Origin: Ignavibacteriales bacterium
GTDB taxonomy: Bacteria > Bacteroidota > Ignavibacteria > Ignavibacteriales > Ignavibacteriaceae
DNA: 64,000 bases
Assembly (NCBI GenBank): GCA_012517155.1
Contig: JAAYVN010000118.1
Span: 62,001-126,000, forward strand
Reading direction: 5' to 3'
The number at the start of each line of letters is the position of its first letter. Within the stretch, counting starts at the first letter, position 1. The notes under the pieces are model-generated. The model did not search any database, had not been told where the DNA came from, and saw nothing but the letters and a program-made list of their open reading frames with translations. Both the position numbers and the translations under genes were made by a program. Of this stretch, positions 31,226-57,797 are shown one piece after another.

Positions 31226-31250
31226 CTGAATTCTTCTCCCTGAATATTTT

Positions 31251-31287
31251 GGGGAATTGCAAACTCTGTAATTCCCCCTTATTTTTA
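31251..31287 (+). terminator. Terminator of the M24 peptidase gene
   Basis: An 8-bp stem GGGGAATT / AATTCCCC, extendable by three pairs into the loop, followed by CTTATTTTT, beginning 26 nt after the stop codon. Confidence 0.75.
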
Positions 31288-31312
31288 AACTTTTTTCTTT
31301 TTCCGGGAATTT

Positions 31313-31456
31313 GGTTACTACACTGACTACGTTACTACATTTGCTGTTTTTAGTCCAAATTCACGGAATATTTGTAGTAACATTCAGAATTCTCAGGTTA
31401 CTACAGTTACTACATTCCTAAAACCTACCCTGACTCCTCCTTCGATCCTCCCTCGA
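31313..31456 (+). repeat. Dispersed intergenic repeat, copy A (~144 bp)
   Basis: Three blocks match the inverted copy B at 57561-57703 with almost equal overall length (144 versus 143 bp): a 27-bp block at 31313-31339 containing TACTACACTGACTACG (25 of 27 bases shared), a block at 31396-31414 containing TTACTACAGTTACTA, and a block at 31437-31456 containing CCTTCGATCCTCCCTCGA. The spacers differ. The TGTAGTAAC/GTTACTACA motif is repeated several times in both orientations, so the RNA or single strand could fold. Confidence 0.8.
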
Positions 31457-31580
31457 TTAAAGTTCATTAGGACTGACTCAAAGTCAGTCGGTTAAGGCAA
31501 TAAATTTTTGCTAAAAAATGACCAAAAATGCTAAATAAATGGTTAGAAATCTAAATTTTGAGGCGATTTTGGATAGTTTT

Positions 31581-57411: not shown

Positions 57412-57797
57412 AGGTCAATGACGAAAAATTTGGATAATTAACAGGGAAATGGGGAAAAACGAGGTGGTTATTCTGATACTCAGAGGTCTTTTTTGTTAAA
57501 TAATGACAGTTTTTGTAAGTTTTGAGATGCTTTCCGACGGACACTGCAGAAGAGGATTACTCGAGGGAGGATCGAAGGAGAAGCGAGGGGGGAGAAAATT
57601 TTATAGTAACTGTAGTAAGGTTGGACGGGGAGTACCTGACTATAAAAACCCCTGAAAATAGCCCAAATTCGTAATTTGTAGTTGCGTAGTCAGTGTAGTA
57701 ACCTAAATATACAAATAGTAATAAATAAATACATTTTATATATATGTTTAAAACAGCTGACTACGTGACTACGTTACTACAATTTATGATTTTGGGA
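57412..57797. other. Intergenic region between convergent genes, repeat-bearing
   Basis: A 386-bp gap. It holds a weak hairpin TCTGA/TCAGA followed by TTTTTT at 57472-57494 (possible rqcH terminator), repeat copy B (57561-57703) and, at 57757-57781, a further CTGACTACGTGACTACG...TACTACA stretch inverted relative to the end of copy B, so the two could pair over about 50 bp of AT-rich DNA. No gene seen. Confidence 0.7.
57561..57703 (-). repeat. Dispersed intergenic repeat, copy B (~143 bp)
   Basis: Inverted relative to copy A at 31313-31456. It carries, in the reverse order, TCGAGGGAGGATCGAAGG at 57561-57578, TAGTAACTGTAGTAA at 57604-57618, and a 27-bp block at 57677-57703 containing CGTAGTCAGTGTAGTAACC, with 25 of 27 bases shared with copy A. 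Overall length is within one base of copy A although the spacers have diverged. Like copy A it sits between convergent genes. Confidence 0.8.

Follow-up and report, generated by a model that had tools for sequence, protein, structure and literature searches.

Copies A and B, the two occurrences of a noncoding repeat in the 64-kb window (the whole 64,000-nucleotide stretch of DNA analyzed here), are probably replication origins of the VapE helicase type that stand alone, without their replicon. The identification of the repeat as a putative origin is well supported, and within that reading A is best taken as keeping half an origin and B as a whole but eroded one. The initial annotation, which had compared the repeat to a miniature mobile element, a REP/BIME-like element, or a structured RNA, missed the iteron-like character of its 9-mers and the fact that arrays of the same kind adjoin VapE helicase-primase genes.

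Copies A and B in the 64-kb window

Both copies were confirmed in the sequence, A at 31313-31456 and B at 57561-57703 on the opposite strand. A BLAST search within the home genome with A as the query matched B at 67% identity over query positions 11 to 161 (151 bp; E = 2.1e-5), and three blocks, GGTTACTACACTGACTACG..ACTACA, TTACTACAGTTACTA, and CTCCTTCGATCCTCCCTCGA, are common to both copies in the same order, as originally described. A begins on the + strand with three direct TACTAC-type boxes (GTTACTACA CT GACTAC GTTACTACA; 31313-31339), a triplet that recurs at the arrays on contigs C5, C111, C125, and C126. It continues with a lone inverted box, TGTAGTAAC (31373-31381, - strand), conserved across the alignment of all eight copies described below, and a tandem box pair, GTTACTACA GTTACTACA (31397-31414, + strand). 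It is followed by a separate module of 11-bp period, CTCCTTCGATCCTCCCTCGAT (31437-31457, + strand; C33:93437-93457). B carries the counterparts on the - strand: the separate 11-bp-period module with one mismatch (57560-57580; C33:119560-119580), an eroded tandem box pair with one mismatch in each box (57602-57619), and three direct boxes (GGTTACTACACTGACTACGCAACTACA; 57677-57703) that match at one mismatch. B had been cut too short; its origin-like layout runs on past 57703 as far as 57781. This extension consists of an AT-rich stretch between the box sets (57704-57755; GC content of 12% in 57700-57749), which is a candidate melting region, and a second, inverted box set on the + strand (GACTAC..GACTAC GTTACTACA; 57759-57781), recognized by its inverted repeats and including an exact + strand box at 57773.

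Exact GTTACTACA occurs seven times in the window, and all seven matches lie at A and B. At one mismatch, the window as a whole contains 16 matches against 10.2 expected, a number reached by 8 of 100 shuffles and thus not significant, so it is the clustering of the boxes that counts. Both copies lie between convergent genes, A between an M24 peptidase gene and a DsbD-like gene and B between genes for an NFACT protein and a lipoyl synthase-like protein.

REP/BIME elements are short imperfect hairpins with a GTAG foot, found in tens to hundreds of copies and with a RAYT gene, and MITEs have terminal inverted repeats and a target-site duplication. The presence of a GTAG-containing 9-mer in direct and inverted copies is what speaks for a structured RNA or a REP/BIME-like repeat, but we regard such an identity as scarcely credible. 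On both strands the 143-bp copies fold no better than shuffled sequences, at or above the shuffle level (z scores of -0.38, -0.37, +1.87, and +1.89), A contains no short imperfect hairpin unit, the genome holds only eight copies, and no Rfam family matches the repeat, two tRNAs being the only Rfam hits in the window. Extended B, with its inverted box sets, does fold well (z of about -4.5 for each strand), an outcome that inverted sets of iterons are bound to give. The comparison with a mobile element was right in spirit, the repeat being dispersed and related to mobile elements, but a classical MITE is not supported: A has no terminal inverted repeats, and no inverted pairs were found in the surrounding region (31230-31580), those of B being the box sets themselves.

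Eight related arrays in the home genome

A search of the home genome (3.29 Mb in 160 contigs) found eight intergenic arrays where only two copies had been described: A and B, both on C33, and one each on C19, C111, C125, C126, C134, and C5, the last running to the contig edge. None lies inside a convincing gene. The convergent setting is true of A and B only and is no rule among the eight copies; the arrays on C134 and C126 lie between divergent genes, and those on C19, C111, and C125 lie between codirectional genes. The core of the array consists of boxes reading TACTAC or GACTAC and their complements (GTAGTA). In the right half, three boxes are followed, after about 33 bp, by one inverted box and, after a further 15 to 25 bp or so, by two boxes. 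On the left side, five arrays (B, C125, C5, C126, and C134) extend through an AT-rich stretch into another box set of inverted orientation; A, C19, and C111 have neither. The arrangement of PICI-type origins, with two box sets flanking an AT-rich region, is accordingly present in five of the eight arrays, including B (57560-57781).

In the right half, boxes are 84% identical between copies, compared with 47% for spacers and 30% for shuffled spacers (standard deviation of 1.6; 25 repeats), with pairs among the near-identical C125, C5, and C126 arrays excluded and with box columns defined on the C125 copy, a choice that somewhat favors the boxes. The copies are thus related by descent, and the boxes are the part retained. 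A and C125 are identical at all 36 box columns, while their spacers are 44% identical. Judged by eye from the eight-copy alignment, A consists of the right half only, with all six boxes kept, whereas in B the layout is complete but three of the six right-half boxes are altered. The boxes of C19 and C134 are eroded like those of B, and the right halves of C5, C126, and C111 are intact. Such a spread of ages fits a history in which elements sharing one specificity arrived time after time and then decayed.

Alternatively, the arrays could be sites kept by the host, either as decoys that would titrate the initiator of an invading VapE phage or lead it astray, or as boxes used by a host protein. 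The conservation of boxes over spacers, well above the shuffled null, and the agreement of A with C125 at every box column both favor this proposal, but boxes are eroded in three of the seven solitary arrays, which speaks for serial deposition and decay, and a DNA search of the 80 genomes of the family found nothing similar in the 79 besides the home genome. We consider kept host sites distinctly unlikely. Two weak matches from that search (L065, 23 bp; L066, 42 bp) were rejected, both lacking TACTAC boxes. Searches of phage and plasmid records with the array gave no match. No tRNA that might serve as an integration site was found in the stretches examined near A, B, C19, C125, C134, and C126, and the tRNAs in the C5 and C111 stretches lie kilobases from the array.

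A separate module, composed of two 11-bp repeats of CTCCTTCGATC, stands beside all eight arrays, inverted relative to the array in three of them (C5, C126, and C111). At no more than one mismatch it occurs at 12 sites in the home genome, 8 at arrays and 4 alone, and the reversed control gave none; the four strong sites at which the CTCCTTCGATYCTCCYTCGAT module stands alone are G000 C14:9963, C109:62528, C138:2721, and C143:1283. Its presence without an array at these four sites makes it a repeat family in its own right. The third of the blocks described as shared by A and B is thus indeed present in both, but it belongs to this separate module rather than to the array. No copy of the module was found in viral contigs. 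In another repeat of the home genome (G000:C38:44489-44517; L224, about 1470-1540), TTACTAC/TTACCAC boxes follow one another as direct repeats every 11 bp (GGCTTTACTAC) near a AATCGAAG stretch; it has no inverted set and is distinct from the arrays.

The VapE gene of contig C125

The VapE family (PF05272) has a single match in the home genome, on C125, and no matches to PF08800 or PF13148 were found there. The C125 protein combines Prim-Pol, VapE, and DUF5906 domains. The contig, of 6,062 bp, carries an N6/N4 DNA methylase gene, a small open reading frame (ORF), the PrimPol-VapE gene, and two ORFs that could not be assigned to a family with confidence, then the array and the terminal part of a further gene. 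A terminase identity considered for this last gene was dropped, its 26-residue tail having no family match. The array is upstream of the operon, 302 bp from its first listed ORF, orf183, and 2.1 kb from the VapE gene; nothing array-like was found 3′ of the latter. No array in the home genome thus occupies the position of a PICI-type origin, immediately 3′ of the initiator gene, and seven of the eight have no detected initiator gene. Because the C125 array lies 5′ of the operon and none lies 3′ of VapE, the pairing of the two is one of proximity and box type only; we estimate the chance that one of eight random sites would fall less than 4 kb from the sole VapE gene at about 2%.

Relative to the gene set of phage-inducible chromosomal islands (an integrase, excision or regulatory genes, pri-rep, and often terS), PrimPol-VapE and a DNA methylase are present on this 6,062-bp contig, together with three ORFs in all that lack a confident family, and no integrase or terminase was found in its 6 kb. 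The C125 VapE protein was matched by 514 of 50,697 phage records in a tblastn search, and a viral scan with this protein confirmed no relative. Over 172 to 190 bp, the arrays of C126 and C5 match the C125 array at 96% and 97% identity, respectively, and C125 and C126 also have in common a 62-bp block on the right side of the array that is 95% identical. No remains of C125 genes or proteins were found beside the other arrays, which makes a poor fit to a simple decay of whole elements. C126 also contains a 600-bp intergenic mosaic of small repeats (L112, 600-1190), in which the 62-bp block common to C125 is joined by a 110-bp block common to C47.

The arrays might themselves be the mobile units, as origin-only parasites that VapE replicons copy and disperse in trans, with an integrase encoded elsewhere or none; they would then parallel MITEs but depend on replication. 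C126, with the array and the adjacent block of C125 and no C125 gene, is in line with this proposal, as are three Cyclobacterium arrays (L074, L083, and L084) with no VapE gene in the stretch, two of them (L074 and L083) with an integrase. The arrays, however, lack terminal inverted repeats, defined ends, or an established target duplication, three of the eight are missing half the origin, and no integrase was recognized near A or B. On balance, we think it unlikely that the arrays spread in this way.

TACTAC arrays beside VapE genes in other genomes

An exact triple-box pattern found 21 loci in other named species among GTDB genomes, mostly Cyclobacterium and other Cytophagales with two Bacteroidales, many of them from related species and so not independent. 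Each of the 21 has numerous boxes, some in either orientation. When VapE genes were located with a VapE protein profile, 15 of these 21 arrays proved to stand immediately 3′ of one, 86 to 179 bp away. At L068 the VapE gene is 5.1 kb from the array, and no VapE was found in the stretches examined of L069, L074, L076, L083, and L084, the array of L076 adjoining a BT4734/PriCT_2 primase gene instead. The same pattern matched 18 stretches of viral contigs, several of them near-duplicates of each other; 10 were array-like, and 5 were directly 3′ of VapE. The distance from array to VapE over the GTDB and viral cases is 28 to 224 bp. With the reversed pattern, viral contigs gave 24 stretches, of which 1 was array-like, compared with 10 of 18 for the true pattern; the raw match count is therefore no higher than in the control, and the difference lies in clustering and gene context.

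These positions bear on whether the boxes could instead be an operator array that binds a phage-type transcriptional regulator, in which case the closeness to VapE would reflect control of the replication operon. The location of the C125 array upstream of its operon suits an operator, but the arrays are downstream of VapE in the 15 GTDB and 5 viral cases, and an AT-rich core between inverted sets is the layout described for origins (PMC6092414). We regard an operator function as highly improbable.

The lone array-like locus of the reversed control, L245, combines a VapE gene with boxes that face both ways and is perhaps a VapE array with another box sequence. TACTAC arrays also lie beside 911-residue BT4734-like/PriCT_2 primases without a VapE match (L076, 4157-6892; L100, 9122-11857), and boxes of this kind may therefore act with helicases of different families. 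Two Cyclobacterium loci (L083, 4109-6483; L074, 951-3310) combine an array with a tyrosine integrase and no VapE in the stretch and look like mini-elements. At L083, where aroQ and aminotransferase genes lie to the left, a ParE-like toxin gene separates the array from the integrase.

Repeats at VapE loci collected independently of arrays

A set of 39 VapE loci was assembled without reference to arrays, from 80 genomes of the family (7 positive) and 392 genomes of the phylum (28 positive, including the home genome and two of the family). At the 38 loci whose sequence extends downstream, a 900-bp strip at the VapE 3′ end was compared with other segments. This downstream strip was strictly the richest in one repeated 7-mer at 19 loci; at the other 19 it was not the top segment, and nothing stands out there. 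At least five copies of one 7-mer were present in 10 of the 38 segments just 3′ of VapE, compared with 2 of the 433 others, one of these two being the C125 array. The box type varies by locus and is often TTAC based (TTACTAC, TTACCAC, TTACCC, TTACCTA, TTACTGC, and TTACAGA), with CTATCAC also found. TACTAC arrays (at least four boxes in 250 bp) lie near only 4 of the 39 VapE genes, so the link at the level of the class draws on these varied box sequences. Boxes that are locus specific and 3′ of VapE are the behavior expected of iterons with an initiator-specific sequence. The densest array seen, at about 7472 of L194 (G400:C2:126400-139200), has 18 copies of a AAATGTGTAA-type word in 250 bp and lies about 0.5 kb 3′ of a VapE gene.

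Orphan arrays were sought in 20 VapE genomes with two-box patterns. The TTACCAC pattern matched in 5 of the 20. Arrays with multiple matches were confined to G393 and G285, in each case at the VapE locus; G069 had one match at its VapE locus, G057 and G065 had single matches, and G025 had none. The TTACTAC pattern matched in 9 of the 20, with multiple matches only in the home genome (G000) and G350. These patterns are insensitive, recovering only A and C111 of the eight home arrays, so orphan arrays in other genomes may have escaped them.

A model for the arrays and its significance

Overall, we favor a model in which the arrays are VapE-type iteron origins. In the complete form, two opposed sets of TACTAC boxes flank an AT-rich stretch, followed by the inverted box, the box pair, and the CTCCTTCGATC module. 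If it acts as SaPI Rep and SCCmec Cch2 do, a VapE-type initiator would bind the boxes, probably through its C-terminal domain, gather at either edge of the AT-rich stretch, and melt it, and melting would start replication of a phage-like or satellite element. The binding of an initiator, origin activity, and the way in which the solitary copies arose are all inferred. C125, with its PrimPol-VapE gene, would represent one element of this type in the home genome, and the other seven arrays were most likely left from, or shed by, such elements; the seven solitary copies may have arisen by element deletion, as origin-only parasites, or as kept decoys. There is also some slight chance that the solitary arrays are not dead but are origin-only elements or host-kept decoys that answer the initiators of VapE phages or satellites; VapE would then either fire at scattered chromosomal sites or be sequestered there.

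VapE genes are common in phages and satellites. A full-text search of open-license papers in PMC returned no paper in which VapE occurs together with iteron and none giving origins for VapE. Further literature searches, chiefly of open-license papers, brought up papers on origins but none that, judged by its listing, is on solitary arrays. An inverted iteron set just 3′ of VapE, often TTAC based and with a locus-specific sequence, offers a handle for searches, and the link between VapE and the arrays makes initiator-origin specificity testable across the Bacteroidota. Solitary arrays would mark past visits by elements or, if active, would be extra chromosomal origins that a phage enzyme can fire.

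Comparison with known origins

Among the closest parallels are the origins of SaPIs and other PICIs, in which an AT-rich region with an iteron set on each side lies 3′ of the gene for the initiator (PMC6092414). The arrays resemble them in having short iterons, in two sets around an AT-rich region, beside a helicase/primase initiator gene (PMC6092414), but differ, as far as can be told, in box sequence and helicase family. The home arrays differ further, seven of the eight having no initiator gene and the eighth being upstream of its operon. SaPI Rep and SCCmec Cch2 recognize iterons just downstream of their own genes, and for Cch2 recognition has been shown to occur via the C-terminal domain (PMC7581432). 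The putative SCCmec cch2 origin therefore shares with the arrays direct-repeat iterons directly 3′ of the gene for a self-loading helicase, whose C-terminal domain binds them, but it has only three iterons, and Cch2 is of the D5/Primase_Cterm type (PMC7581432); the term VapE has no occurrences in the text of that source. Like REP/BIME elements and MITEs, the arrays are small, noncoding, intergenic, and present in several copies, but they have no REP hairpin, no terminal inverted repeats, and few copies, and it is the boxes rather than the whole unit that are conserved. The RepA/origin system of the Vibrio cholerae PLE differs in its RepA_N initiator and iterons of about 30 bp, but it too is a satellite origin with iterons, and one in which initiator specificity and origin vary together (PMC8263062).
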